Source: Anaerolineales bacterium
GTDB lineage: Bacteria; Chloroflexota; Anaerolineae; Anaerolineales; E44-bin32
Assembly (NCBI GenBank): GCA_004376465.1
Contig: SOJU01000005.1
Coordinates: forward strand, 1-42,271
Direction of reading: 5' to 3'
DNA length: 42,271 nucleotides
Within the stretch, counting starts at the first letter, position 1. Every line of letters starts with the position of its first letter. The translations under genes were made by a program, and so were the position numbers. The notes under the pieces were generated by a model. The model was not told the origin of the DNA. It saw nothing but the letters and a program-made list of their open reading frames with translations, and searched no databases. Shown here one piece after another: positions 23,672 to 39,164 of this stretch.

Positions 23672-24463
23672 ATGATTATTGCGATTGCTATCCTCGGTTG
23701 GGCCTTCGGGGCCGCCATCAACTGGCTTGCAGATAGCCTCCCGTTTTTTCGCAAACCGGCGATGCCACGCTGCCCTGCTTGCACAGCCCCTTTCTCACCG
23801 ATCTCCTGGTTCGCCGTTCCTGCGATCATCGCCCGAGTTTGGCGTTGTGAGTATTGCAGCACAAGACGCCAGACGCGAACTTTGCTCGTTGAGATACTGG
23901 CCATCGCCGGATCTATTAGCATTTACTTCTGGAGCAATTCCCCAACGAGTTTCTGGTCGGCCTTTCTTGTAAGTGCGGTTTTCTTGCTCATCATTGTCAT
24001 CGACATGGAGCACAAACTCATCCTCCATGTTGTTACTTTTCCGGCTGCTGTCTTATTTATAGTGCTCGGTCTATTAAATCCGCAGATGAGTCTGGGCAGG
24101 GTGCTCCTGGGCGGGGCGGTTGGGTTCGGTCTGTTCTTCCTGCTCTACTTGCTCGGAGGGATATTCGCTCGCAATGTTTCTGGGGGGCAAGACAACGCCG
24201 ACGATGAAGTCGCTCTTGGTTTTGGTGATGTGACTCTGGCCACGATCATTGGGTTGGCGGTTGGTTTCCCAGGGGTGATCGAAGCGTTGCTGCGCGGCAT
24301 CCTCGCGGCCGGCTTATTCAGCATCGCCTATTTAATATTCATGAAGATGCGCCGCCGCTACAGCGCGTTTACACCGATTCCTTATGGTCCTTTTCTCATC
24401 CTGGGCGCCTGGTGGGTTTATTTCTGGGGATGGGCGTGGTTGGAGAGAATCCTCAATATGTAG
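23672..24463 (+). CDS. Type IV prepilin peptidase (A24 family)
   Basis: Membrane aspartyl protease that cleaves the leader of pilins and pseudopilins. The 263-residue protein has the full PilD-like layout, not the short TadV form: an N-terminal segment GWAFGAAINWLADSLP, a cytoplasmic zinc loop with CPAC (34-37) and CEYC (59-62), and about seven membrane spans. The catalytic aspartates are Asp111 (VIDMEHKLI) and Asp186 (GFGDVTLA). The end motif IPYGPFLILGA is conserved. It probably processes the three TadE-like proteins encoded just downstream, each of which carries a GxxxxEF site. The second, methyltransferase, activity of PilD enzymes may also be present. Confidence 0.93.
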   Translation: MIIAIAILGWAFGAAINWLADSLPFFRKPAMPRCPACTAPFSPISWFAVPAIIARVWRCEYCSTRRQTRTLLVEILAIAGSISIYFWSNSPTSFWSAFLVSAVFLLIIVIDMEHKLILHVVTFPAAVLFIVLGLLNPQMSLGRVLLGGAVGFGLFFLLYLLGGIFARNVSGGQDNADDEVALGFGDVTLATIIGLAVGFPGVIEALLRGILAAGLFSIAYLIFMKMRRRYSAFTPIPYGPFLILGAWWVYFWGWAWLERILNM

Positions 24464-24633
24464 ATGAAAACTCGGATTGAGCTCGAGTTTGTTTCTATAT
24501 TGTTACAAAAACGTCTCAATGACCTGACAGTATGCTCCCTTGGTCCCGCGGTACTAGCCCTCGAGTAAAACACAGCGCGTATAATGATGACTGTCACATG
24601 GATGTCATTGCTGATGGCACAGGATTAATGGAA

Positions 24634-25257
24634 ATGGAAAAAACACGAGACTTTCCTAGGTTGCGCTCTAATACAACACGCAAGAAATCGCGTGGGCAAA
24701 GCATCGTCGAGTTTATGGTTCTGCTGCCGTTGTTGGTCATGATGCTCTCGGGCTTGATCGAGTTTGGTTTCATGCTTAACTTCTATCTGGACCTGATCGA
24801 TGGAGCCAGGGAGATCGCAAGGTTTGGCGCGAATGTGGACCCACTTTCGGGTAAGAGCGCAGGTTCATGCAATTCGGATTGGTTCTACGAACTGCTGCCA
24901 TGCATGGCGGATCAGATATTCTCTGAACAGGTCGTCTTACAATACGGCCCCCCCGAAACGGATGATCTAATCCTCTCAGCCATCGCGGCTTCAGGCGGTG
25001 TGGTGACTCAACGCTTCCCGGATGCGGATGGTTGGAGTCGCGCGGGCAACCACATTTCGAAATTCACCAACGCGGATATCAACGGAATGCTCAACGCCGC
25101 CGCACCGGCCACCGGGATGGTCTTAGTCGAAGTTTATTACGATTACCACATGGTTCTGGGTCTTCCCTGGATCACGATGTTCGTGCCGGACACGATCACA
25201 CTTCATGCTTACAGCATAATGCCAAATGCCTATGTCGAACCAACACCAACCCCGTAA
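24634..25257 (+). CDS. TadE-like pseudopilin
   Basis: A 207-residue TadE-family protein. Its N terminus is basic (RLRSNTTRKKSRG) and followed by the cleavage-like motif G-QSIVEF and one membrane helix (VLLPLLVMMLSGLIEFGFML). The rest is extracytoplasmic with a cysteine pair (SCNSDW, LPCMADQ). The C terminus ends EPTPTP, a short version of the Pro-Thr tails on neighbouring proteins. The start is uncertain: Met at 24634 has AGGA nine bases upstream; Met at 24598 could be a leaderless start from TATAAT at 24580-24585. The last 32 bases overlap the next gene. In Tad systems such proteins are minor components of the pilus assembly site. Confidence 0.82.
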   Translation: MEKTRDFPRLRSNTTRKKSRGQSIVEFMVLLPLLVMMLSGLIEFGFMLNFYLDLIDGAREIARFGANVDPLSGKSAGSCNSDWFYELLPCMADQIFSEQVVLQYGPPETDDLILSAIAASGGVVTQRFPDADGWSRAGNHISKFTNADINGMLNAAAPATGMVLVEVYYDYHMVLGLPWITMFVPDTITLHAYSIMPNAYVEPTPTP

Positions 25258-26803
25258 CGCTTCATCTAAACTCCAGCGTGGGCAGGCGCTGTTGCTCATC
25301 GCCTTGGCCTTCATCGGTCTGGCAGCATTTATCGGTCTGACCGTTGATGCTGGGATCCTATTCATCCAGATCGGCCACCTGCGCCGCGCGGTTGACTCGG
25401 CATCACTCGCCGCAGCTAACCAATTCCGTGAGGGGCGCACGTTGGCCGAGATCGAGGCTGCAGCCGATGAATTCATCGCTTTAAACAGCCTCAACCCAGC
25501 CAATGCCGTGATTTTCATTTGCGATATCTCCGACCCGACGGCGGGAAATTCTAATATCTACCACGACGTTGATATCTGCCCTCCGGATATTGATGGAAAT
25601 GGTGTACATGACGATTCACCGCCGCGCAAGTTCGTACGCGTGGAAGCCACAATGCCGGTGGAATTCGCTTTCCTGCCGATTATTGGCTGGGGCTCTATTG
25701 ACATTCGGGCGGAGGCTATCTCCGAAACGGCTTCTGTCGATCTCGTCTTGGTCATCGATACCTCTCAATCCATGGCCTGGGATGCTGTCTGCGGTGATGG
25801 TATAGACGATGATGCCTACTGGGAGATTCAAGCTACAGGTGCTGCGGATGGCGTTGATGACTGCGACGATGGCGGGACGGTTCCGACAGCAGGCGCAGTC
25901 CCGGATGATTACGGTAGTGACCCCAACAACTGCAACGACCCCGATGTCGCCGCCGGTGTTCAGGGTGAGTGCTATCCTTTCGAGGATGTGCGGGCAGCCG
26001 CGCTTGCACTCGTCGATCGAATGTATTTCCCTTACGACCGCATGGCGGTCATAAGCTTCAATGTACATGCAACCGCCCAGCTGCATTTTAGCGATTCCCC
26101 ATCTTCGATCAAATCCTCCATCGGCAGCCTTTTGGTGTACAAGCTGCCCAGTTGTGATGGATGGACTAATTTCAAGGATCCGACTGGCTGCACGAACACG
26201 AATATCGCCGACGGTTTACTATTTGGTGGGAACGAGTTCGGCCTCTCGCTGCGCCAGGAGGCTGTTCCGATTCTCGTCTTGCTCAGCGATGGCGCCGCAA
26301 ACGCGGCGACGGATAACGACGGGGATTTCGTTTGCCCTGCCGGACCGGGTGGTAACCCGACCTGGGTCGAACCCTTCTGCCGTGATGACGATTTCGAGAT
26401 TGGTCCAGGGGCCTACGGTGCGCCAGATACAGAGGACATGGCAGTGGCCCGCGGTTATTTCGTCGGCTGCCCGGATGCAAACGCATATGACCCGATGCTG
26501 ACTTCCTGCACTGCATCAGGGCAGGGAGCGGTCGTGTTCACGATCGGTCTCGGTGAAGAGTTGATCAACAACACCGACTGTCATGCGGCCTCCTATCCCG
26601 GAGGGTGTCAACCAAACCAGGGTGAAGAATTATTGCGTTTTATCGCCGCAATCGGAGATGACGGCGATCCAGCTTCAGATCCGTGCTCAAGCGAGCCAAC
26701 CGGTCAATCCTGCGGGAATTACTATTACTCTCCGACCGGCACAGGGCTCATTAAGGTATTCGAGGCGATCGCATCACGTATCTTCACGCGCATCGTCCAT
26801 TAA
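25226..26803 (+). CDS. TadG-like protein with von Willebrand A domain
   Basis: A 525-residue exported protein. Residues about 17-65 are the Tad/TadG N-terminal module (GQALLLIALAFIGLAAFIGLTVDAG...), with one membrane span. It lacks the +5 Glu, so it is probably not cleaved like the TadE proteins. The von Willebrand A domain (about 172-520) has an intact metal site, DTSQS (178-182), and SDG (354-356). Large Asp- and Cys-rich insertions follow the metal site (190-250), with more at 365-430. DIDGNGVHDD (121-130) and DNDGDF (363-368) look like calcium-binding loops. Seventeen or so cysteines suggest several disulfides. Such domains bind ligands or surfaces, and TadG-type proteins sit near the pilus. 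It overlaps the preceding gene by 32 bases with no ribosome site of its own. Confidence 0.87.
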   Translation: MPMSNQHQPRNASSKLQRGQALLLIALAFIGLAAFIGLTVDAGILFIQIGHLRRAVDSASLAAANQFREGRTLAEIEAAADEFIALNSLNPANAVIFICDISDPTAGNSNIYHDVDICPPDIDGNGVHDDSPPRKFVRVEATMPVEFAFLPIIGWGSIDIRAEAISETASVDLVLVIDTSQSMAWDAVCGDGIDDDAYWEIQATGAADGVDDCDDGGTVPTAGAVPDDYGSDPNNCNDPDVAAGVQGECYPFEDVRAAALALVDRMYFPYDRMAVISFNVHATAQLHFSDSPSSIKSSIGSLLVYKLPSCDGWTNFKDPTGCTNTNIADGLLFGGNEFGLSLRQEAVPILVLLSDGAANAATDNDGDFVCPAGPGGNPTWVEPFCRDDDFEIGPGAYGAPDTEDMAVARGYFVGCPDANAYDPMLTSCTASGQGAVVFTIGLGEELINNTDCHAASYPGGCQPNQGEELLRFIAAIGDDGDPASDPCSSEPTGQSCGNYYYSPTGTGLIKVFEAIASRIFTRIVH

Positions 26804-26821: not shown

Positions 26822-29095
26822 ATGTACGTTTTGCCAGCCAGCCAATCTCCCGGTGATCTACAACGTAAGCGGCGTTTTCGCGGGCAGACTCTCGTCGAGT
26901 TTGCGCTTGTGCTGCCGGTTATGTTGATGGTCCTGTTCGTAATCATCGAAATGGCGCGCCTGTTGCATGCATGGCTCGCGGTTGAAAACGGGGCCCGTTT
27001 TGGGATACGCTATGCGGTGACGGGTGAATACGATCAAGCCTTCTGCGTCGATGGACCCGATGCAGGCACCGAAGCCTGCGGCGGAGCGGATCGGCTCAGC
27101 GAGGAGGATGCTGCCCGCTTGCCCTCCATAGAAGATGCTACGCGTGCGGGAGCCGTCGCCATTATGCGCAATGAGACAGTCCCAGTAGCATCGCCGGGTT
27201 ACTTTAAGATCACGCTTTGCTCCAGCAAGCGAACCGGGGCTGGAGCTCTTTTCTTGTATCACGATTCGAACACACCTATCCATCAGCCGGCGTGGTGTGA
27301 GCAACGTCCCTCCACTGGTATCTCCGTTAGTGACGCAGGCGGACCGGGCGATCGTGTTTCCGTAACCGTGGACTTCGAACACCCGCTAATCGTGCCGCTC
27401 ATCAGTTCGGCATTACCCAACATCCACCTTACCTCTAAACGAGAAGGCATCGTTGAGCAATTCCGTGTCGCCCGCGTCGTCGGCCTGCCGGCGACGATCT
27501 CTGTGCCGACTTTCACGCCGACAAACACCGCGACTGCCACTTCAACACCTACTTCTACACAGACGCCTACTCCTTCGACTACACCGTGTAAGGTACCTCC
27601 CGTCGTCCAAATTATCTTACCCACCAATGGATCGACCTATAACGTTAAAGTGCCCGGCCAGGCAGTAGCATACGATCCGGATAACGCTGATCCTGCAGCC
27701 TGCGCGGGCGTTGGCGTAGATGGTGAGGGGATCGTGCAGGTCGATTTCGCCATCGATTTTTGGGATGCATCTTTGCCTGTGCCTGCTTGGACGAGGGTCT
27801 TCTCGTCAACAGCGACCGCACAAGCCTACTGTACTTTTAGTGGGAATGCACCTTGCAGTGAGCACCCGACGACCACGGCGCAATGGCCCGGTGGAATTCT
27901 AATGGGTTCGGGCCTGCACCGCATGCAGGCGATAGCGACCGATGACGAAGGTGAAGTAAGTCCCGTCGATGAGGTTCAGTTCTTGCTCAATGTTCCGCAT
28001 ACGCCCACACCAACCGCTACCCCAACGACCGATTGCAATGCTATCAGTGTGAATCAATACTACACTTCTGGCGAAGGGCTTTACATGTTGGTGCAAAACA
28101 ACAATCCACAGACGATCAATCTTACCAATTCCCATACCAATTGGAATGAGATGAGCGTCGGTCACAACGTCGACCGGCTGCAGTACAACTGGGTGCAATA
28201 TTATCCAGGCGATGATTTCAGTTCACCGACAACTCGGGGACCTGCTGTTCCGAGCTCTTTCTCTCATCCACCAGGTGCCTCGGTCTACTGGGCAGCGCGT
28301 TTCAATAACACACCGGGTGGTGAACTTATAGGTGATTACGACACAACATTAACCTTCGATTCAGTATGCCTGGTATCCTCATCGATAACCATTCCTATGC
28401 CTACGAATACCCCTACAGCAACCAACACGCCGACTCCGACGCTGACTCCAACCATTACCAACACACCTCCTCCGACTAGTACGCCTACCATCACACCCAC
28501 GCCCTCCTGCTCAGGCGTCTCTTTTGGCTCCACGACGTTCCTGACAGGCGCCCGCATCCAATTGGGAATCAACAACACAACCTATCCAGGGTTGCAGATC
28601 ACGGGTGTCACAATACTTTGGGGTCCCTTGGAATCCGCATCGAACCTATATGGATGGAATGAGTACTTCAATTGGGCTCAGTGGAATGGGTCGTATGTCA
28701 ACTTGGGCGATGATCCAACTTCGACAACCTCGATTGGCTTTACCAGCGCTGCGAATCCGAGTAACAATCTCACCATTGATTGGGGGGGAATCTTCGCCGG
28801 CTCGTTCATGAACGCACCGCTTAACTTGGGTCCGGGGAATTTCGGTTTCTCGATCCAGTTCAGCGATCCGGCCTGCAATATTTCAAGAGGAGCCTCACCG
28901 GTAACATTCCCAACCCCGACGAACACACCGCTGCCAACGAACACGCCCACGGCAACGAATACGCCAACGGAGATGCCAACTCCGACGATCACACCGTCGC
29001 CGACAGCGACAACCCCGCCGCCGCCGACGACTCCGACTCATACACCAACACCAGTAACTCCGTCTCCAACCGCGACCGATCCAGGTTTTGGATAA
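26822..29095 (+). CDS. Giant TadE-like protein with Pro-Thr linked domains (paralogue 1)
   Basis: A 757-residue surface protein. Residues 1-20 are a basic leader; G21-QTLVEF is a prepilin-type cleavage motif followed by one membrane helix (about 22-45). A pseudopilin body extends to about 225. Then come four Pro-Thr linkers alternating with domains: linker 230-255; an Ig-like domain 256-392 resembling bacterial Big repeats (ITLP-type start, DDEGEVS end); linker 393-404; domain X 405-516; linker 524-562; domain Y 563-685; tail 697-757 ending in DPGFG. X and Y each begin and end with a cysteine. The gene starts after GAGGGAG and ends at a strong terminator. Its paralogue lies 4.3 kb away (33381-35612) with X and Y in reversed order. 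The role (adhesin, tip or wall-spanning fibre) is inferred. Confidence 0.88.
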   Translation: MYVLPASQSPGDLQRKRRFRGQTLVEFALVLPVMLMVLFVIIEMARLLHAWLAVENGARFGIRYAVTGEYDQAFCVDGPDAGTEACGGADRLSEEDAARLPSIEDATRAGAVAIMRNETVPVASPGYFKITLCSSKRTGAGALFLYHDSNTPIHQPAWCEQRPSTGISVSDAGGPGDRVSVTVDFEHPLIVPLISSALPNIHLTSKREGIVEQFRVARVVGLPATISVPTFTPTNTATATSTPTSTQTPTPSTTPCKVPPVVQIILPTNGSTYNVKVPGQAVAYDPDNADPAACAGVGVDGEGIVQVDFAIDFWDASLPVPAWTRVFSSTATAQAYCTFSGNAPCSEHPTTTAQWPGGILMGSGLHRMQAIATDDEGEVSPVDEVQFLLNVPHTPTPTATPTTDCNAISVNQYYTSGEGLYMLVQNNNPQTINLTNSHTNWNEMSVGHNVDRLQYNWVQYYPGDDFSSPTTRGPAVPSSFSHPPGASVYWAARFNNTPGGELIGDYDTTLTFDSVCLVSSSITIPMPTNTPTATNTPTPTLTPTITNTPPPTSTPTITPTPSCSGVSFGSTTFLTGARIQLGINNTTYPGLQITGVTILWGPLESASNLYGWNEYFNWAQWNGSYVNLGDDPTSTTSIGFTSAANPSNNLTIDWGGIFAGSFMNAPLNLGPGNFGFSIQFSDPACNISRGASPVTFPTPTNTPLPTNTPTATNTPTEMPTPTITPSPTATTPPPPTTPTHTPTPVTPSPTATDPGFG

Positions 29096-29110
29096 ATCAG
29101 CGAACAGGCA

Positions 29111-29141
29111 AACGACCCCGCGAGAGCGGGGTCGTTGTTTT
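29111..29141 (+). terminator. Intrinsic terminator after paralogue 1
   Basis: A perfect 11-base stem, AACGACCCCGC (29111-29121) and GCGGGGTCGTT (29126-29136), closed by a GAGA tetraloop and followed by GTTTT. Confidence 0.92.
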
Positions 29142-29149
29142 AACCCTTC

Positions 29150-29178
29150 TTGCTCCGGTTAATCAACTGGCATACAAT
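29150..29178 (+). promoter_or_regulatory. Promoter candidate, leaderless type, for the membrane kinase
   Basis: TTGCTC (29150-29155), a 17-base spacer and TACAAT (29173-29178) lie just after the terminator. The ATG is at 29187 with no ribosome site, so the transcript should start at or within two bases of the start codon. Confidence 0.5.
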
Positions 29179-29186
29179 CCCATCTG

Positions 29187-31355
29187 ATGGTCGAAAATAA
29201 CCGCCTACCTGAACTCTACAGCCGGCATTGGCCGGTACTTCTGGTGATTATTACCGCTTTTTACAGCCTCTGGATTACGCTAGCTCCGGAGACGATGGAA
29301 GGCAGCTTATTCCCCACGGTTCTGGTCTTCGGCGTCCGTCTGATTGTTGCCTGGGCCGCAGTTAAAGCGCTTCCAGAGATTCGAATGGGACCCGAACAGC
29401 GATCCTGGCGTCTCCTTGCCGTCGCGCTGCTAATCTGGGCGGCCGCGGATGCGCTTGCTGTCCTACTATGGATTTTACACGGCCAACCCTTACTCCCACC
29501 GTCATTTCGTGAGCTATTAGTCCTGGCGGGTTATCTGGCTGCACTTACGGCGTTCATTACCTACCCAACGGAGCAACCGGGACGCTTCGGACGGATGCGG
29601 GAGACGCTTGATCTCTCCATCCTGATCATCTCCGTCTTGACGATCTCCTGGCTCATCTTTCTGGGGCCCACATTCCGTGCTCAGACGCTCTCTCCCGGTG
29701 ATGCTTTTTGGCTGAGCGTTCTTCCCACTTTAGACCTGATATTGCTCGTTCTTGTATTGCGCTTAAATCTACTTCGCAAGAATCAACAGGAGCGCTGGGT
29801 GTTTCCACTCTTGGCGGTCGCTTTCATCGTTTTTTTTGTGAGCGATTTAGGAAATGGTCTGCTCCGCGGTGAGGCACGCGTTGGTATGCCGAGCTTTGTC
29901 GAGGCGGGTTGGATGGTGGGAACGGTGCTTATCGGCATTACCTATCAGATCCTGCAAGGTCGATATGCGTATCAGCGTCAAGAGGAACCTGGTCGTCGGG
30001 AGTGGCGGCTGCGGATAGAACTCCTTTTACCTATCGCTTTCACATATGCCGTCGTTGGCTATATCCTTTTTGATTGGTGGTACGCTGGATCTCTGGATTG
30101 GGTAAGTATCGGCGCGGCAGGGATCCTGATCCTGCTCATTTTCGCTCGCCAGGGCGTAATTACCGGTCAGCAGGAGATGGTGCAGTTCGCGGCGCTCATC
30201 AATGCGACCTCTGACCTGGCTTTCGTTTGCACACCCGAGGGTGAAATACAACTTTCTAATCCGGCGCTGCGAAAGGCGATAGGCGATGAAAAAGCTCAGA
30301 ATGTGAATTTGTTCTTCCACATCGAAGGCGATGAGCCGGCGTCATTTGACACGATCCTCGAGAGTGCACTCGATGGGGGTTGGAGCGGGGAGGTTGCGAT
30401 CGGTGGAGAGGATGGCTCCAGGCTTCCGGTGCACCTTTCACTCAACCCGATAGAGGCTGCCCGCGGCCAGAGTGCCTTGCTGGCGGGTACCGCTCACGAT
30501 CTGACGATGATCCGCGCGCGTGAGACCGACCTGCGAAATGCTATGGAGCAAATTGCCCTTGCCCGTAACGACCTTGCCAGATTGAATGCTGAACTGGAGG
30601 ATAAGGTTGAGGGGAGAACCCGAGAATTAGAGGACACAGTCGCAGATCTTGAGAGATTAAATGAGGAGTTGAAAACACTCGACAACCTTAAATCGGAATT
30701 CGTCGCCCTCGTATCCCATGAATTGAGGGCGCCGCTGACGAACATACGCGGTGGAATAGAGCTAGTCCTCAAGAGCCGTTCAAAACTAGGGAAGAAGTCG
30801 GGTCAATCTCTGCAGCTCGTTCAAGATGAGACAGAGCGCCTTTCTCTATTTGTTGAGACTATCCTGGATTTATCGGCATTAGAAGCCGGGAGATTTCATC
30901 TATCGCTCTCGCCGCTCTCGATTGCAGAAGTTCTCGAGAGGACGATTGCACGCTTTCCGGCTCGCACCGTCAAATCTCGAGTAAAAATGGAAATCGAGAA
31001 GAACATGGCCACGGTGATCGCGGATGCGCGCGCACTCGATAGCGTTTTCTTCCACTTGCTGGACAACGCTGCGAAATATGCACCATCTGGCGACATAATT
31101 ATTGAAGCTCATGAGGAACCGGAGAGGGTGGTTGTAGCCGTTGTCGATTCGGGCCCGGGAATCCCCGCAGACCAGCGTGAGCATATCTTCGAGATGTTCC
31201 ACCGATTGGATACGAGTGATGCGCGCGAGGTCTATGGTCACGGATTGGGTTTGCCCATGGTGTCACGATTGCTGGAGGCCATGGGAGGAGGAATTCGAGT
31301 GGATGAAAAAGCGATGACGGGAACTCGTCTTGAATTCTGGCTGCCGAAAGAGTAA
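29187..31355 (+). CDS. Multi-span membrane histidine kinase with PAS domain
   Basis: Two-component sensor kinase, 722 residues. Residues about 12-322 contain roughly ten hydrophobic segments forming an integral membrane sensor with short loops. A PAS domain (about 330-445) and a coiled coil (about 450-500, RNDLARLNAELEDKVEGRTREL) follow. The HisKA domain has SHELRAPL with His511, and the HATPase domain has HLLDNAAKY (623-631), DSGPGIP (654-660) and GHGLGLP (684-690), all intact. The adjacent OmpR-type regulator is the likely partner. The pair sits between two giant pseudopilin genes, suggesting it senses envelope or surface state and controls them. The membrane sensor type is not one I can name. 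Confidence 0.92.
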   Translation: MVENNRLPELYSRHWPVLLVIITAFYSLWITLAPETMEGSLFPTVLVFGVRLIVAWAAVKALPEIRMGPEQRSWRLLAVALLIWAAADALAVLLWILHGQPLLPPSFRELLVLAGYLAALTAFITYPTEQPGRFGRMRETLDLSILIISVLTISWLIFLGPTFRAQTLSPGDAFWLSVLPTLDLILLVLVLRLNLLRKNQQERWVFPLLAVAFIVFFVSDLGNGLLRGEARVGMPSFVEAGWMVGTVLIGITYQILQGRYAYQRQEEPGRREWRLRIELLLPIAFTYAVVGYILFDWWYAGSLDWVSIGAAGILILLIFARQGVITGQQEMVQFAALINATSDLAFVCTPEGEIQLSNPALRKAIGDEKAQNVNLFFHIEGDEPASFDTILESALDGGWSGEVAIGGEDGSRLPVHLSLNPIEAARGQSALLAGTAHDLTMIRARETDLRNAMEQIALARNDLARLNAELEDKVEGRTRELEDTVADLERLNEELKTLDNLKSEFVALVSHELRAPLTNIRGGIELVLKSRSKLGKKSGQSLQLVQDETERLSLFVETILDLSALEAGRFHLSLSPLSIAEVLERTIARFPARTVKSRVKMEIEKNMATVIADARALDSVFFHLLDNAAKYAPSGDIIIEAHEEPERVVVAVVDSGPGIPADQREHIFEMFHRLDTSDAREVYGHGLGLPMVSRLLEAMGGGIRVDEKAMTGTRLEFWLPKE

Positions 31356-31406
31356 GCGTTCCCTGTTTAATTTCATCTATTAAGGTAAATTGAGAGTGCC
31401 TCGAAT

Positions 31407-31435
31407 TTTTCAATCTATGAAACCAACAATATAAT
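31407..31435 (+). promoter_or_regulatory. Promoter candidate for the response regulator
   Basis: TTTTCA (31407-31412), a 17-base spacer and a perfect TATAAT (31430-31435). The ATG lies 45 bases beyond the -10, with AGGG seven bases before it. Confidence 0.5.
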
Positions 31436-31479
31436 AGGGAAGCCATTGTTGGCGAAAGGATTATAGAACAGGGTTTACC

Positions 31480-32157
31480 ATGACGAATAAAGTGCTTGTC
31501 GTCGATGATGATAAAACTCTGCTGCGCTTCATCTCTGAATACTTGGAGAAAGAGGGTTTTCAGGTAGCGATCGCAGATCGTGGGCAGAAGGCGCTGCGCC
31601 AATTTTACAAGCAGCGTCCAGAGATTGTGCTTCTGGATGTCATGATGCCCGGGATGGACGGCTGGGAGGTTTGTGCCCGACTCAAGGAATTGGCCGATGT
31701 GCCAGTAATTCTACTCACCGCCAAGACCGCGGAAGCTGATAAGCTGCGCGGCTTTCGTCTAGGCGTTGACGACTACATCACCAAGCCCTTCAGCATGGCC
31801 GAGCTCGTTGCCCGCATTCAGGCTGTGCTAGCTCGAACACAGTCGGACAGCGATGATGATGTTCTCTTCGCTGGAGTGATTGCTGTGGATATGTTAAAAC
31901 GCGAGGCGCGCATAGAGGATCGTGTGCTCGACCTCACACCAACAGAATTTCGACTTCTCGCCGCGCTCGCTCGCCGTTCCGGAGAAGCTGTATCGCAGGA
32001 TGATCTGATCGCAGATGTTTGGGGCGAGATGCGAGTTAAGAGCGGCAGTGCGCTGCGACGTTATATCTGGCTTTTGCGCCGTAAGATTGAACCTGACCCG
32101 GAGAACCCTACACGGCTGGTCACCGTCCGGGGCTACGGCTACCGCCTGGAGACGTAA
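31480..32157 (+). CDS. OmpR/PhoB-family response regulator
   Basis: DNA-binding response regulator of 225 residues. The receiver domain (1-120) has the acidic pair Asp10/Asp11, phosphoacceptor Asp53 (LLDVMMPG), Thr80 and Lys102 (YITKPF). The C-terminal winged-helix domain (about 130-225) has the family marks LTPTEFRLLAALARR, LIADVWG, LRRYIWLLRRKIEPDP and VRGYGYRL. The neighbouring kinase ends 124 bases upstream. Although it may have its own promoter, readthrough is also possible. Target genes are not identifiable, but both flanking giant pseudopilin genes are obvious candidates. Confidence 0.94.
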   Translation: MTNKVLVVDDDKTLLRFISEYLEKEGFQVAIADRGQKALRQFYKQRPEIVLLDVMMPGMDGWEVCARLKELADVPVILLTAKTAEADKLRGFRLGVDDYITKPFSMAELVARIQAVLARTQSDSDDDVLFAGVIAVDMLKREARIEDRVLDLTPTEFRLLAALARRSGEAVSQDDLIADVWGEMRVKSGSALRRYIWLLRRKIEPDPENPTRLVTVRGYGYRLET

Positions 32158-32202
32158 GCCCTCGGTGTTTGCTTCTCTTCTCGAACGACAGGTTGTGGGA
32201 AC

Positions 32203-32312
32203 ATGTCATGCTGAACGAAGTGAAGCATCTCGTTCTTCGATATTACGGGTACTTTCTGCCAGGAACGGTAGTCTTCGCTTCCTGAGGTCGCTCAGAATGA
32301 CATTGGCGAGGA
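32203..32312 (+). repeat. Dispersed repeat family R2, copy 2
   Basis: Begins TGTCATGCTGAACGAAG and ends GAATGACATTGGCGAGG. It matches 33091-33184 directly and 23381-23490 in reverse complement; the middle (GGGTACTTTCTGCCAGGAACG) is shared with copy 3. Confidence 0.8.
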
Positions 32313-32340
32313 TTCTGTCATTTTATTGCACGGATACTAT

Positions 32341-32514
32341 CCATGTTTACCGTAATCCGCCCGTCAATAAATTGACGGGCTCATAGCAGAACCCCTTTGG
32401 GCTAACAACGAGGGAGCTCTCCACCTTTTTGCTTTGAGCCCGGAGGTTCAGCTCCGGGCGTACCCTTGATTTGTCGTTTCGAGTGAGCCTGGGAACGGCG
32501 ATCGAGAAATCCCT
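32341..32514 (+). repeat. Hairpin repeat family R1, copy 2
   Basis: Full-length match to 23119-23292 in reverse complement, with both hairpins conserved (GCCCGTCAAT/ATTGACGGGC and GCCCGGAG/CTCCGGGC). Confidence 0.85.
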
Positions 32515-32565
32515 GAAATGCAGCTCATGAGAATTCCATCTCTGACCTCGAATGTAGCCCCTTAA

Positions 32566-32697
32566 TGTCATTGCGAGCGAAGCGAAGCAATCTCCTCGAA
32601 ACTTGATGGGAGATTGAGATCCTTAGACTTCGCCCCCGACAAAACCGGGGACTTCGCTCAGGACAGGCATTGCCCTAGCGGTCTCCTCGCAATGACA
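32566..32697. mobile_element. MITE-like repeat R3 with 12-base inverted ends
   Basis: Starts TGTCATTGCGAG (32566-32577) and ends CTCGCAATGACA (32686-32697), exact reverse complements, spanning 132 bases with no coding capacity. The left half (32557-32620) recurs at 32924-32987. The motif CATTGCGAGCGAAGCGAAGCA is, from memory, a common dispersed repeat in many uncultured bacterial genomes. Confidence 0.55.
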
Positions 32698-32753
32698 ATA
32701 TCGGAATACCCGACCAAAAAAGACCGGCCTCAACGCTCATACCCTCAGGTCTG

Positions 32754-32863
32754 ACAACGAGGGTCTCTCCACTCTTTTGCTTTGAGCCCGGAGGTTCAGC
32801 TCCGGGCGTACCCGCGATTTGTCATTTCGAGTGAGCTGTGAAACAGCGATTGAGAAATCCCTA
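32754..32863 (+). repeat. Hairpin repeat family R1, partial copy
   Basis: Matches 32405-32514 directly: ACAACGAGGG, the GAGCCCGGAGGTTCAGCTCC hairpin and GATTGAGAAATCCCT are shared. The GCCCGTCAAT hairpin half is missing. Confidence 0.8.
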
Positions 32864-32923
32864 TGATGTTGCTTTAAAGGACTCATCCCTTGAAACAGAC
32901 ACTCTCCCTGAGCGACGACCTCC

Positions 32924-32987
32924 GCCCCTTAATGTCATTGCGAGCGAAGCGAAGCAATCTCCTCGTTACTTGATGGGAGATTGAGAA
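32924..32987 (+). repeat. Repeat family R3, partial copy
   Basis: Matches 32557-32620 with few changes (GCCCCTTAATGTCATTGCGA at the start, GATGGGAGATTGAGA at the end). No matching right end is seen nearby. Confidence 0.75.
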
Positions 32988-33015
32988 CCCGCGACTTCGC
33001 TCTCCGCTCTCTTTG

Positions 33016-33080
33016 GTCGGGGGCTTCGCCCCTCAAACAGCGTGGGACTTCGCCCCACAAACAGCGTGGGACTTCGCAGG
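33016..33080 (+). repeat. Short tandem repeat of hairpin units
   Basis: Two and a half units of about 24-26 bases, each with a G-rich arm, a TTC loop and a C-rich arm followed by AAACAGC (for example GGGGC-TTC-GCCCC). Confidence 0.75.
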
Positions 33081-33090
33081 CTAAACTCCA

Positions 33091-33184
33091 CGAAGCATCT
33101 CGTTCTTTGATCTTACGGGTACTTCCTGCCAGGAACGAGATCCTTCGCTTCCTACGGGCGCTCAGAATGACATTGGCGAGGAAT
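33091..33184 (+). repeat. Dispersed repeat family R2, copy 3
   Basis: Direct match to 32217-32312, including GAAGCATCTCGTTCTT and CTCAGAATGACATTGGCGAG. Confidence 0.8.
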
Positions 33185-33380
33185 CTCTGATCCTATCATC
33201 TCGAGAGCGAGCCGTCTCAGGGATTATTTCCTTATGCAGACTCCCAAATATATCGCTACCGAAGCCGTAAGTTGGTTGTAAGGACGAATTACGAATCCCG
33301 CGTGTAAACTTGGAGCAGGTGACGAACGACGATTATTGTGGGGTTGTTTGATTCACTCGGATGTGTGGAGCTATAAGATC

Positions 33381-35612
33381 ATGAGAGAAACCGAACGCTC
33401 AAAATCCAAAGGGCAGGCACTTGTCGAGTTTGCGCTTGTCTTGCCGATTATGCTCCTGCTTCTCTTCGCCATCATCGAAATTGCCCGATTGCTGCATGCC
33501 TGGGTCTCGATCGAGAATGGCGCTCGCTTTGGTGTTCGCTACGCTGTCACGGGTGAATATGACCAGGCTTATTGTGCCGGGTATCCCGGTGGGATCTGCG
33601 ATTCAAAAGCGGAGGAGGATGGCGCTCGCATCCCTTCGATTAAAGATAATGCCTTATCTGGATCAGCGGGTATTTTGCGGGACCTCGCTGCGCCTCCCGG
33701 GGCACCGGGTTATTTGAAGATTACAGTCTGTTCGAATAAAAAGGATATTGTCTATTTCCCGTCGGATTCAGGTGCCAGTATATCAGCAGATTGTCAGCTG
33801 ACTGAAGATGCGGGCGGTCCGGGCAATAGGGTCTCGGTTACGCTGGATTTCGATCACCCGATCATAAGCCCAATCATAAGCTCTTGGATGCCAAAACTTC
33901 GGCTTACGGCTAAGCGCGAAGGTATCGTTGAACAGTACCGTGTCGCCCGTGTCGTTGGTCTGCCGGCGACGATTTCGGTACCGACGTTCACACCAACGAA
34001 CACCGCGACTCCTACGTCAACGTCAACCCCAACGACGACGCCTCCGCCAACGCACACACCGACGCCGACGGAGACACCCTGCAAGGTACCGCCGTTGATC
34101 ACATTATTGAGTCCTTTGCCAGGTGTTATGATTGACGGTCCGGGCTCAAAGATCCCCTCTTATGCACAAGCCTATGATCCAGATAATTCCGATACAGCTA
34201 CCTGCGCCGGCGTTGGCCCCGATGGCGACGGGATTATGCAGGTGGAATTTCAGTTCTTCTGGTGGGACGGCTCGGGTTGGGCTTGGCGTTACACCTCGGT
34301 GGATTACACAACGGATTATTGTGGATTTGGCGGTAACGCTCCTTGCAATGGTCACCCTGTGGTAAGCGCTAAATGGCCCAATGGGCAACCGATAGAGTCG
34401 GGTCAGCATAAACTCTCGGCGAGGGCGCTAGATGATGAGGGGGTTTGGAGCAATTGGGCTGAAGTGATGTTCGAAATCGGCGTCCCACCGACACCGACTC
34501 CAACTGTGACGCCGACGCCTTCTTGCGAGGGTGTGAGCTTCGGACAGTTTCGCTTCTTCAGCAGCGCCCGCGTCGCCCAATGGATCAACAACACCAGCTA
34601 TCCAGGGCTTGAGGTTGTCGGTGTGACGGTCAATTGGAATCCGGTCGAGCAGGCTTCAAATCAATATGGTTGGAATGAATACCTCGATTGGATGTATTGG
34701 TATACCTCAAAAGTCAATAATGGGAATGACTACTCGTCTTCAACATCGGCAAATACAAGCTTGCCGAAACCTGTCCGAACCGGGGAAAATGCGACGTACA
34801 TCTATATGAACTTCAACGGTGGCTTTGAGGGGTATCTCTCCTCGGCACCGTTGAATCTCAATTCAAGCCACTTTGGCTTCTCGGTCCAGTTCAGCGACCC
34901 GGCCTGCAATCTATCCAGCGGGGCCGCGCCGATCACCTTCCCAACCATCACGCCGACGCCCTCTCCTACGCCGACGGGTACGGCGACGCTTACACCGACG
35001 ATCACCCCCACATCGACGATTACGCTCACGCCGACGATCACAAATACGCCGACTAACACCCCGACGGTAACAAATACGCCAACGATCACGCCTACACCGA
35101 CACCGAACTGCCACCTGATCCAGCAGATCGGCACCGAATTGAAGAACAACTTCTTCGGCATCCGCCTGATCAATCACAACCCACAGACGGCGTATCTGAC
35201 GAGTTCGACTCTGCTATGGAACACAACTTATGCGCCGCCGATGAGCTTCAACAACTTCAAGTTCCAGGGTACCAACTACGGCAGTTCTTCGTTCGGCTCT
35301 CCAGTCTCGGCGGCGGCGCCTTCAATCTCTCTCTCAAACGGTGCGGATCGTTGGTGGGAGGCGTACTTCAACCTGAATGGGCAGCCTTTCAATGGAATGT
35401 ACAAGGGTACATTAACCTTCCTGTTCCCAGGGTGGGGCACTTGCCAGATCGAAGGCAGTTACTGGGCGGCACCTCCGCCAACGCCAACGCAGACGCCTGT
35501 CTGGACGGCTACTCCAATACACACACCAACCTTTACGCCGCCGCCATCTACAAACACGCCGACGGTTACGCCTACGCCGACAGTTACAGACACACCGCCA
35601 CCCTTCGGCTAA
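33381..35612 (+). CDS. Giant TadE-like protein with Pro-Thr linked domains (paralogue 2)
   Basis: A 743-residue surface protein paralogous to 26822-29095. A basic leader (MRETERSKSK) precedes G11-QALVEF, a prepilin-type cleavage motif, and one membrane helix (about 12-35). The pseudopilin body and first linker are closely similar to paralogue 1, including the shared LPATISVPTFTPTNTAT. Layout: linker 201-233, Ig-like domain 234-368, linker 370-381, domain Y 382-509, long linker 521-576, domain X 577-688, tail 697-743 ending PPPFG. Thus Y precedes X, the reverse of paralogue 1. Met at 33381 is preferred, with GGAG ten bases upstream; the open frame to 33336 lacks a site. A terminator follows at 35637. 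Confidence 0.88.
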   Translation: MRETERSKSKGQALVEFALVLPIMLLLLFAIIEIARLLHAWVSIENGARFGVRYAVTGEYDQAYCAGYPGGICDSKAEEDGARIPSIKDNALSGSAGILRDLAAPPGAPGYLKITVCSNKKDIVYFPSDSGASISADCQLTEDAGGPGNRVSVTLDFDHPIISPIISSWMPKLRLTAKREGIVEQYRVARVVGLPATISVPTFTPTNTATPTSTSTPTTTPPPTHTPTPTETPCKVPPLITLLSPLPGVMIDGPGSKIPSYAQAYDPDNSDTATCAGVGPDGDGIMQVEFQFFWWDGSGWAWRYTSVDYTTDYCGFGGNAPCNGHPVVSAKWPNGQPIESGQHKLSARALDDEGVWSNWAEVMFEIGVPPTPTPTVTPTPSCEGVSFGQFRFFSSARVAQWINNTSYPGLEVVGVTVNWNPVEQASNQYGWNEYLDWMYWYTSKVNNGNDYSSSTSANTSLPKPVRTGENATYIYMNFNGGFEGYLSSAPLNLNSSHFGFSVQFSDPACNLSSGAAPITFPTITPTPSPTPTGTATLTPTITPTSTITLTPTITNTPTNTPTVTNTPTITPTPTPNCHLIQQIGTELKNNFFGIRLINHNPQTAYLTSSTLLWNTTYAPPMSFNNFKFQGTNYGSSSFGSPVSAAAPSISLSNGADRWWEAYFNLNGQPFNGMYKGTLTFLFPGWGTCQIEGSYWAAPPPTPTQTPVWTATPIHTPTFTPPPSTNTPTVTPTPTVTDTPPPFG

Positions 35613-36016: not shown

Positions 36017-36964
36017 TTGACAGAAGATAAAAAGAAAGGCAGCATGCAGGTTGGGACGATATTAATAGCTGAGGATGATCCGGATTATCGGCAGCTTCTC
36101 TCTCGCCGCGCCTCCCGCATGGGTCTCGATGTACACCAGGCGGCGGATGGCCAACAGGCCATGGATGCCGTAAAGGAACATGAATTCGACGCGCTTGTAC
36201 TCGATTTGTACATGCCTGAACATACCGGCCTGGAAGTGATCGATGCAGCCCGTAAGGTCGATCCGGATGTTCAAGCGCTCATTCTCACGGGGAGTGCGTC
36301 CGTCGAGACCGCCGTAGAGGCGCTGCGGGCAGGTGTGTACGACTACCTTACCAAACCTCTGGAGTCGATGACCAGTTTTGAACTCGCCTTATCTCGTGCG
36401 CTTGAGCGCAGGTATCTGGTCAAGGAAAACAAGCGCCTCTTCGAGGAAATCCAGCGTCTGGCGGTGACCGATGCACTCACCGGTTTATACAATCGCCATA
36501 AACTGCAGGATAGTTTGGAAACGGAAGTAGAACGGGCGAAACGATACAGCCGGCCGCTGTCCATCATCATGATCGATATGGATAAGCTCAAGGCCCTCAA
36601 TGACACCTACGGCCACGCAGCCGGGGATGTAGCGCTGAAGCTTGTAGCGAAATCCATTCAACGTTCGATTCGAAAAGTTGACCTGGGTACGCGATTTGGA
36701 GGTGATGAGTTTATTGTTCTCCTCCCTGAGGCAGACCGCGATGAAGCGGCTGCGGTTGCGAAACGCATTCGTGAGGCTATATCGGCTGTAGAGTTTGAGT
36801 CAGGGAAGCTCTCTGTAAGCATGGGAGTCGTACAGTGGCACTCAGGATTTGAAACATCGAAAGACTTCGTTCATGCAGTCGATGAGGCGATGTATCTCGC
36901 CAAGCGGTCTGAGGGTGAGAGGCTCCATGTTCTCGCCGCTGAGGCCAATGGTCCCGTGGAGTGA
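36017..36964 (+). CDS. Receiver-GGDEF response regulator (diguanylate cyclase)
   Basis: Makes cyclic di-GMP when its receiver is phosphorylated, as in PleD or WspR types. The 315-residue protein has a receiver (about 11-130) with Asp63 (VLDLYMP), Thr91 and Lys113, and a GGDEF domain (about 145-310) with an intact active site FGGDEF (227-232). The product-inhibition site RKVD (219-222) lies five residues before it. The start is TTG at 36017, chosen for GGAGG seven bases upstream; ATG at 36044 is the alternative. It leads a same-strand run of signalling genes whose kinase (37161) could phosphorylate it. Cyclic di-GMP commonly controls pili and adhesion, fitting the upstream cluster. Confidence 0.94.
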   Translation: MTEDKKKGSMQVGTILIAEDDPDYRQLLSRRASRMGLDVHQAADGQQAMDAVKEHEFDALVLDLYMPEHTGLEVIDAARKVDPDVQALILTGSASVETAVEALRAGVYDYLTKPLESMTSFELALSRALERRYLVKENKRLFEEIQRLAVTDALTGLYNRHKLQDSLETEVERAKRYSRPLSIIMIDMDKLKALNDTYGHAAGDVALKLVAKSIQRSIRKVDLGTRFGGDEFIVLLPEADRDEAAAVAKRIREAISAVEFESGKLSVSMGVVQWHSGFETSKDFVHAVDEAMYLAKRSEGERLHVLAAEANGPVE

Positions 36965-37160: not shown

Positions 37161-39164
37161 ATGAATATAAAAGCTTGGTTTAGAGCAAAAGCCCCAAAGG
37201 ACGCCCTCAAGCAGATGAACAATCTCTTTGAGAGCGTTATTGCCCGCATCCCCATCTTCTCGAGCCTGCGCACTAAGCTTATCGTTCCCTATGCCACGCT
37301 AACCCTCGTCGTTGCCATGATCGGCGTGTTTATTATCACTCGCCTTGTTTCAGGCTCTTTTGAAGAGCGTTTTGAAAATCAATTGGTTGAAGCAAGCCGA
37401 GTGACGGCTGACGGTGTTGTTCGCATGGAGAAAAAGCACCTGGAGGATCTACGCCTACTCACTTTTATGGAAGGCGTTTCGGGTGCGATTGATTCTCGGG
37501 ACCGCGAGAGTCTCCAAGCGACATTTGAGGGGATTGCAGTTAATAACAATATTGAGCTGATCGCCGCTATTAATGATCAGGGGAAGGGAATTATCACCTT
37601 AACCTATGATCCAGAGGCTGGCGGCACAGAATTCTTTACAGGGGATGATTATTCACTCTTCGGATGGGTTCAAAGCGTTCTTTCCGGTCAGGTTGATGAG
37701 GTTGGGGATAAGTTAGCGGGTCTCATGGATACTCAGATGGGGAAGTTCATTTTCACCATTGCACCGGTAAGGGATGCTGATGAAAAAATCGTCGGTGCCC
37801 TTTTGATTGGGTCAAAAATTGATACCCTACTGGATGAGTTAAAACTGCAGGCTCTTGCCGATATTCTTATCCTGAATCCGGAAGGTTCGCTCGTTACGAC
37901 TACGCTGGCTGAACCGGAAGGTGGTTATGGCATTCTCGAGATTGATGGGGAGTCGCTCAGAGATGCAGGTTTGACATCCTTAAATCGAGAGATGGAACTT
38001 TACGGGCGGGATTATGAAGTCCTCTACACCCCTTTGATGATCCGCGACGCAGAAGCTGGTTTCATCGGAGTGGTGACCTCCAGCGAATATATCGCCACCG
38101 CTCTGACAACCAACCGCAATACCTTCAGCTTAATCTTCACACTCGGCACTGGAGCGGTAATCCTGCTCGGCTATCTGCTCGCGCAGCACGTCGCTCGTCC
38201 GATCCTCCAACTGCGCTCCATGTCACAAGCTGTCGCAGGGGGGGATTTAAATCGAAGCAGTGGTTTAGAGCGGACGGATGAGATCGGCGAATTGGCGAAT
38301 GCCTTCGACATCATGACTCTGCGTTTGCGGGAGCGTACCGAGGAAGCTGCACGCCTATATAAAGAAGCCATTCAAAGGGCGAAGGAGTTGGAGGAGATGA
38401 ACGCCCGACTGCAGGCAACACAGGCGCAGTTGATCCAGTCTGAGAAGCTCGCTTCCGTCGGGCAGTTGACAGCGGGCATTGTCCATGACGTCAAGAATCC
38501 GCTGGCGGTTATTAAAGGCTTAGCCGAAGAGTTGTCCGAAGAAGGTGACCTGGATGAGTTTACTGTAGATGGTCTTGAGACCATCCGAGACAGCGCATCC
38601 AAAGCGAACACGATCGTCACCGATTTGCTCAAGTTCGCCCGGCAATCTACGCCTGAAATGCAGACTCGTGATATGAGGGCTACGCTTGAGTCGGTTTTCC
38701 GCCTGACCGAATATCTCGTACGCAAAGGCAATGTCACCCTCGTACCAGACCTGCCTCTGACCTCGGTCATGGCGACTTATGACCCGCAGCAAATCGAACA
38801 GGTGCTGATTAACCTGGTGACGAATGCTGTGCAAGCGATGCCTGATGGGGGCACGCTCGACGTATCGTTGAAAGAACATGAGGATAACCTCGCCATAACA
38901 ATGCGCGATAGCGGGGTGGGGATTCCTGAAGAGAACGTCGTTAGAATTTTCGATCCCTTCTTTACCACGAAACCCGAGGGAGAGGGAACGGGATTGGGTC
39001 TCTCCGTGAGCTACGGAATCGTTTCGCGCCACAGAGGGCGCATTGAAGTAGAGAGTGAGGTTGGCATCGGAACTACCTTCACCGTTACCCTGCCGTTACA
39101 GGCTGACAGTTTAAATGAACAACCCATGGAAGTTGAGAAAAATGTCGCGAGTTCTGGTCGTTGA
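37161..39164 (+). CDS. Membrane histidine kinase with extracytoplasmic sensor and HAMP
   Basis: Two-component kinase, 667 residues. Membrane spans at about 42-64 and 324-345 enclose a 260-residue extracytoplasmic sensor of Cache-like design (paired segments such as [12 protein letters not shown] and [10 protein letters not shown]). A HAMP domain (about 342-395) and coiled coil lead to a phosphoacceptor region [16 protein letters not shown] (His442), of the NtrB-like HDxxNPL type. The ATPase part has [10 protein letters not shown] (551-560), DSGVGIP (583-589), FDPFFTTK and GTGLGLS (609-615), all intact. The ATG has no clear ribosome site and abuts the 19-base repeat. Its end overlaps the next gene by 23 bases. 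It is the only intact kinase in the stack and probably drives the neighbouring receivers. Confidence 0.93.

Follow-up and report, generated by a model that had tools for sequence, protein, structure and literature searches.

What might be the function of two very long proteins that begin like the small subunits of a pilus? The minor pilins of Tad pili were assumed to be small, and the surface biology of Chloroflexota is poorly known. The question arises from two genes in a 42,271-nucleotide stretch of an Anaerolineales bacterium (contig SOJU01000005.1, here called the window), in which an earlier, sequence-only reading had described two giant pseudopilins with the same parts in a different order. 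Here, we argue that the two giants are probably modular minor pilins that serve as exchangeable adhesive caps at the tip of a Tad (type IVc) pilus. Both open reading frames lie where the sequence-only reading had placed them, and the two proteins with their parts are as follows.

26822..29095, + strand: giant TadE pilin 1, 757 aa (TadE body, Ig-like domain, X1 of lineage M2, Y1, disordered tail)
26882..27010, + strand: TadE prepilin motif and hydrophobic helix of pilin 1 (G-QTLVE-F, Glu at +5; PF07811 match)
27587..27997, + strand: Ig/FnIII-like domain of pilin 1, residues 256-392 (VIA structural alignment)
28034..28369, + strand: module X1, residues 405-516 of pilin 1, lineage M2
28508..28876, + strand: module Y1, residues 563-685 of pilin 1
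33381..35612, + strand: giant TadE pilin 2, 743 aa (TadE body, Ig-like domain, Y2, X2 of lineage M3, disordered tail)
34074..34493, + strand: Ig/FnIII-like domain of pilin 2, residues 232-371 (profile match and alignment)
34524..34907, + strand: module Y2, residues 382-509 of pilin 2
35109..35444, + strand: module X2, residues 577-688 of pilin 2, lineage M3

The TadE-like start of both giants is borne out by scans of Pfam and NCBIfam, in which TadE was the pilin family found: PF07811 matches the N-terminus of pilin 1 with E 4.2e-13 and that of pilin 2 with E 3.4e-14, and the scores (49.6 and 53.1 bits) are both above the Pfam cut-off of 22.9. The prepilin motif, R/K-GQxLVEF, has invariant G, Q, E and F in 16 sequences, and is followed in pilin 1 by a hydrophobic helix that spans residues 22-67 in an AF2 model. 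The body, the first Pro-Thr linker and the Ig-like domain are common to both giants, as had been claimed, and the two proteins align with 47% identity over 485 BLASTP columns. The body, the modules and the linkers alike are under purifying selection (dN/dS about 0.1; 0.115 for pilin 2 against its relative in L048). A tandem-repeat scan returned short imperfect arrays only, all of them in the linkers, and scans for promoters and terminators gave predicted counts no higher than chance.

Behind the Ig-like domain, the sequence-only reading had recognized two kinds of Cys-bounded domain, X and Y. The Cys boundaries (405/516 and 563/685 in pilin 1; 382/509 and 577/688 in pilin 2), the NPQT motif at 428 and 600, the YPGL motif at 588 and 407, and the Pro-Thr linkers between the parts are all present, and the Cys at either end of the module is almost invariant across the family. 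Y1 and Y2 are 54% identical (shuffle z 49), and X1 and X2 resemble each other above chance (shuffle z 10). A profile made only from X modules, taken from genomes that have no Y, detects Y in register, though weakly, with E 7e-5 to 1e-2 for most copies and only E 0.34 for one, while iterated searches seeded with X or with Y converge on 54 modules in 29 ORFs either way. Judged by these sequence comparisons, X and Y are homologous and belong to a single module family, within which they have diverged. The proposal that they are unrelated domains was also considered, and the detection of Y in register by the X-only profile rules it out. No standard known domain emerged: none of 46 modules rose above a curated Pfam cut-off (best E 0.047, single members), and neither X nor Y has a sequence match in Pfam, NCBIfam or PDB.

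When modelled alone by AF2, X2 is predicted to be a nine-strand beta sandwich (mean pLDDT 96.5). The AF2 model of full-length pilin 1, which is of middling confidence (mean pLDDT 66.8), contains in order the helix, a small beta domain, the Ig-like domain (261-389), X1 (408-524) and Y1 (566-689), with disordered linkers between the folded parts, such that Ig, X1 and Y1 are extra folded domains behind the pilin body. The succession of strands agrees among X1, X2 and Y1, those of Y being read from this middling full-length model, and the picture of Cys-closed beta domains carried on Pro-Thr linkers behind a TadE anchor is supported. A Foldseek comparison of X2 with the PDB gave nothing at E <= 0.001, and since the top structural alignments are to generic Ig-like sandwiches, the module fold does not point to a ligand. 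The Ig-like domain of pilin 1, on the other hand, aligns with the bacterial Ig domain B1 of CelAly (9kvu; VIA Z 10.7, 1.9 A, 92 residues; sequence match E 6e-4) and with the FnIII-like domain of CbhA (3pdd; VIA Z 10.0, about 2 A). While it is like these spacers in fold, they belong to polysaccharide-degrading enzymes, and the Ig-like domain of the giants differs in having four extra cysteines and a long insert.

Did X and Y exchange places between the two giants? An X-like module precedes Y in one giant and follows it in the other, and modules of the family do get replaced, duplicated and lost; module 3 of L054, which groups with module 1, is an example of replacement or duplication. Free shuffling, in which X and Y would truly have exchanged places between the paralogues by recombination, is nevertheless highly improbable. 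Other genera have a three-module pilin, and in a tree built from 52 modules its module 2 is the partner of X1 (support 99/97) and its module 3 that of X2 (support 93/78, not starred); both groupings were named post hoc with the tree already seen. The grouping of X1 with X2, in turn, was fixed before the tree from the earlier claim; forcing the two into one clade loses 55 log units, and the AU test rejects that clade (p about 1e-60). The pairwise comparisons run the same way, with X1 matching module 2 of a relative at 44% (109 bits, gapless) and X2 matching module 3 at 58% (133 bits), as against 30 bits for X1 with X2 and 35 bits for X1 with module 3. Tree and scores therefore place X1 and X2 in different, though homologous, module lineages (M2 and M3), both of them common to other genera, and the two Y modules in a single lineage.

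With this assignment, the claim that the two giants share a common part X falls. Pilin 1 becomes M2-Y and pilin 2 becomes Y-M3, next to M1-M2-M3 in other genera and Y-M3 in genome G021. M2 precedes Y, Y precedes M3 and M2 precedes M3. These orders do not conflict and all fit the line M1-M2-Y-M3; therefore gains and losses suffice, and neither permutation nor inversion is required. What survives of the modular shuffling envisaged earlier is the set of beta domains on a pilin anchor, but not the change of places: as far as the module sequences can tell, exchange of modules in the family is real and an X/Y swap of this particular pair is not. The swap was discarded on both the module phylogeny and the pairwise bit scores.

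The exchange of payloads is visible among the relatives. The pilin body occurs at 22 loci of named MAGs, all labelled as Chloroflexota/Anaerolineae (one as Candidatus Aquidulcis), and its profile matches 47 of 301 genomes of the phylum, with many of the weaker matches spanning the helix only. Some relatives consist of TadE plus a linker only, some carry one module, and others up to three; a five-module ORF in L056/L082 sits in a frame other than that of its TadE ORF. The Ig-like domain is restricted to the genus of the window and one gene of G021 and is absent from most relatives, gene 1 of G021 being TadE-Y-M3 without Ig and gene 2 TadE-Ig-M3-like. In a search across the class, the module family itself was found in at least 16 of 298 genomes, a lower bound because few candidates were scored per genome, and it also occurs on non-TadE Pro-Thr proteins, including ones with a single membrane span and some with VWA. 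In two genomes of another family, PA14 replaces the modules in the same gene position: one long TadE protein (L140:7403-10543) has two PA14 stretches and the other (L141:8447-11410) has one, with overlapping GLEYA matches. These two proteins are likely to be sugar-binding pilus tips.

Several further variants were noted among the relatives. In L112 (G176), the module family and a VWA-like region are combined in one TadE protein more than 1,000 residues long, the VWA assigned by eye. At L063:7672-9140 (= L080) and L056:6426-9411 (= L082), separate but overlapping ORFs in different frames encode the TadE body and the modules; the frame changes in or near the first Pro-Thr linker, and this would reflect either an assembly error or phase variation. 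In both giants of the window, the last Pro-Thr stretch is followed by a short conserved tail at the C-terminus (29060-29095 and 35577-35612). Tails of the types CLDC, CGMDC, PPLDG, PPSFEG, GPGD and CLTPPDLGGCG occur (also in L052, L053, L054, L051, L057, L140 and L141), and the giant pilins of one genome mostly have a uniform type, even with differing payloads.

That tail types recur across one genome's pilins even with differing payloads, and that the modules have no recognized binding fold, speaks for a reading in which the modules are inert spacers that only lengthen the stalk, and binding falls to the Ig-like domain, to the VWA protein or to the tail at the C-terminus. We consider this quite unlikely. 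The Ig-like domain is missing from most relatives, PA14 sugar-binding domains take the modules' place elsewhere, and module number and lineage vary on a conserved body, as expected of a functional payload.

The reading of the giants as tip pilins draws on their neighbours as well as on their own sequences. The genes that surround them, each syntenic in relatives, are as follows.

23672..24463, + strand: prepilin peptidase A24, TadV/CpaA-like (Peptidase_A24 E 4.3e-13)
24532..25257, + strand: small TadE-type minor prepilin (Pfam TadE E 4.5e-10)
25226..26803, + strand: TadG-like protein with VWA (VWA_2 3.7e-5, Tad_C 5.3e-5, Tad 0.0018)
29187..31355, + strand: PAS histidine kinase (Pfam)
31480..32157, + strand: OmpR-type response regulator (Pfam)
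36017..36964, + strand: response regulator with GGDEF, a diguanylate cyclase (GGDEF E 1.3e-42)
37161..39164, + strand: dCache histidine kinase (Pfam)

Across the family a common order recurs: A24 peptidase, small TadE, TadG/VWA, giant TadE, PAS kinase, OmpR regulator, second giant TadE, GGDEF protein and dCache kinase. The small TadE and TadG/VWA genes stand directly upstream of the first giant and are thus co-encoded minor pilins, and the triplet of small TadE, TadG/VWA and long TadE reaches other families of the order and class. No Tad assembly operon was found within the window. The same genome (G000) encodes three CpaF/TadB/TadC-type clusters on other contigs (C77, C234 and C239), with differing ATPase types; among them are genes for CpaF ATPase, T2SSF proteins, a TadZ-like ATPase and RcpC/SAF. 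Flp-like pilin matches in the genome are weak (E 2.6e-6, under the Pfam cut-off). In the single-contig relative G003, about 140 kb separate the Tad cluster from the giant pilins.

Considering that the locus has no assembly genes, that the giants flank a histidine kinase/response regulator pair with more sensors downstream, and that the same modules occur on non-TadE, single-span Pro-Thr proteins, the main rival explanation is that the giants are pilin-derived but act outside any pilus, as membrane-anchored stalks or sensors of the adjacent kinases, with their modules in a multilayered envelope. It is difficult to reconcile this with the strong conservation of the prepilin motif, with the prepilin peptidase, small TadE and TadG/VWA genes that adjoin in conserved order, or with the Tad machinery of the genome, and we regard it as unlikely.

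Precedents for pilins with added domains come from other phyla. In Myxococcus xanthus, the Kil tips, which are experimentally needed for pilus formation, contain TadE/F/G-like pilins with C-terminal modular domains; these tip pilins carry variable domains and act as primers of pilus formation (PMC12075869). Like KilL/KilM/KilN, the locus described here has several co-encoded TadE/TadG-like minor pilins, at least one of them with a large C-terminal modular domain, and in both systems a genome has several paralogous tips and the payload differs between species. The locus departs from the Kil tips in its two giant TadE genes, its Pro-Thr stalks, its series of Cys-closed modules and the two-component genes that lie among the pilin genes; the likeness is one of gene set and architecture. 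The type IV pilin PilB of Streptococcus sanguinis is modular and an adhesin, and a survey of modular type IV pilins counted more than 1,200 proteins in 264 architectures, some with many repeats (PMC8179133). The giants resemble PilB/PilC in having a module grafted onto a pilin; in PilB/PilC the module binds a ligand and the pilin has a class III signal peptide. They differ from the IPR012902 pilins of that survey in being TadE-type with modules outside Pfam. Within Chloroflexota, Tad pili themselves have been reported (PMC7332563, PMC13319060).

The tip-pilin reading is favoured because both giants combine the TadE match with the Glu+5 motif, because the A24 peptidase, small TadE and TadG/VWA genes adjoin upstream in an order common to many relatives, and because the triplet recurs in other families while the genome encodes the three Tad-type clusters. 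Further reasons are that the modules are predicted to fold as beta sandwiches between disordered linkers, that PA14 occupies the payload position in the two genomes of another family, that dN/dS is about 0.1 throughout, and, by analogy, that the Kil tips, the PilB adhesin and Chloroflexota Tad pili set precedents. Set against it are the position of the Tad clusters off the contig, the distance in G003, the foreign phyla of the Kil and PilB precedents, and the Foldseek result for X2, in which no PDB match assigns the modules a ligand.

How would such a tip work? We infer processing, tip position, adhesion and regulation along the following lines. The peptidase from the gene just upstream would cut after the Gly of the prepilin motif, and the helix of the giant would insert together with those of the small TadE and TadG/VWA proteins, which would give the pilus a tip (priming) complex. 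Carried on Pro-Thr stalks, the Ig-like spacer and at least one Cys-stabilized beta-sandwich module would stand clear of the cell, and the modules would there bind a surface or polymer. The payload varies in module number, lineage and domain type, with PA14 in other families, on a constant triplet of TadE, TadG and long TadE. Because histidine kinases, response regulators and a diguanylate cyclase interleave with the pilin genes, contact or environment may set which tip is made, in a manner coupled to c-di-GMP. A bolder version, which we hold to be doubtful, treats the locus as a self-contained regulated tip cassette: two alternative giant tips with exchangeable payloads would bracket their own sensor pair, and the conserved tail (CxDC, CGLDC, PPLDG etc.) would be read by a dedicated partner.

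To the sequence-only reading, a fibre of this kind looked undescribed. For the family itself this stands, in that no paper on giant TadE proteins or their module family was found in the open-access literature searched; for the general principle it does not, as long TadE proteins occur widely across Chloroflexota, and both modular pilins (PMC8179133) and modular Tad tips (PMC12075869) have been described. As for the word fibre, no observation places the giants in the shaft of a pilus in preference to its tip. New here are the non-Pfam module family, the several paralogues in one regulated locus, and the exchange of payloads across families. Variable domains on Tad tips were first shown in 2025 in Myxococcus (PMC12075869), and the giant TadE family would extend such tips to Chloroflexota. 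Proteins with 1 to 5 modules would provide a natural series for how the reach and binding of a tip scale, and the regulatory neighbourhood could connect pilus contact to c-di-GMP.

One more gene stands after the sensor genes, at the end of the contig (41736-42266), where a single-span Pro-Thr protein begins. The same order is found in L048, L049 and L051, and in these relatives cadherin/VCBS-like repeats extend the protein by more than 1,000 residues.
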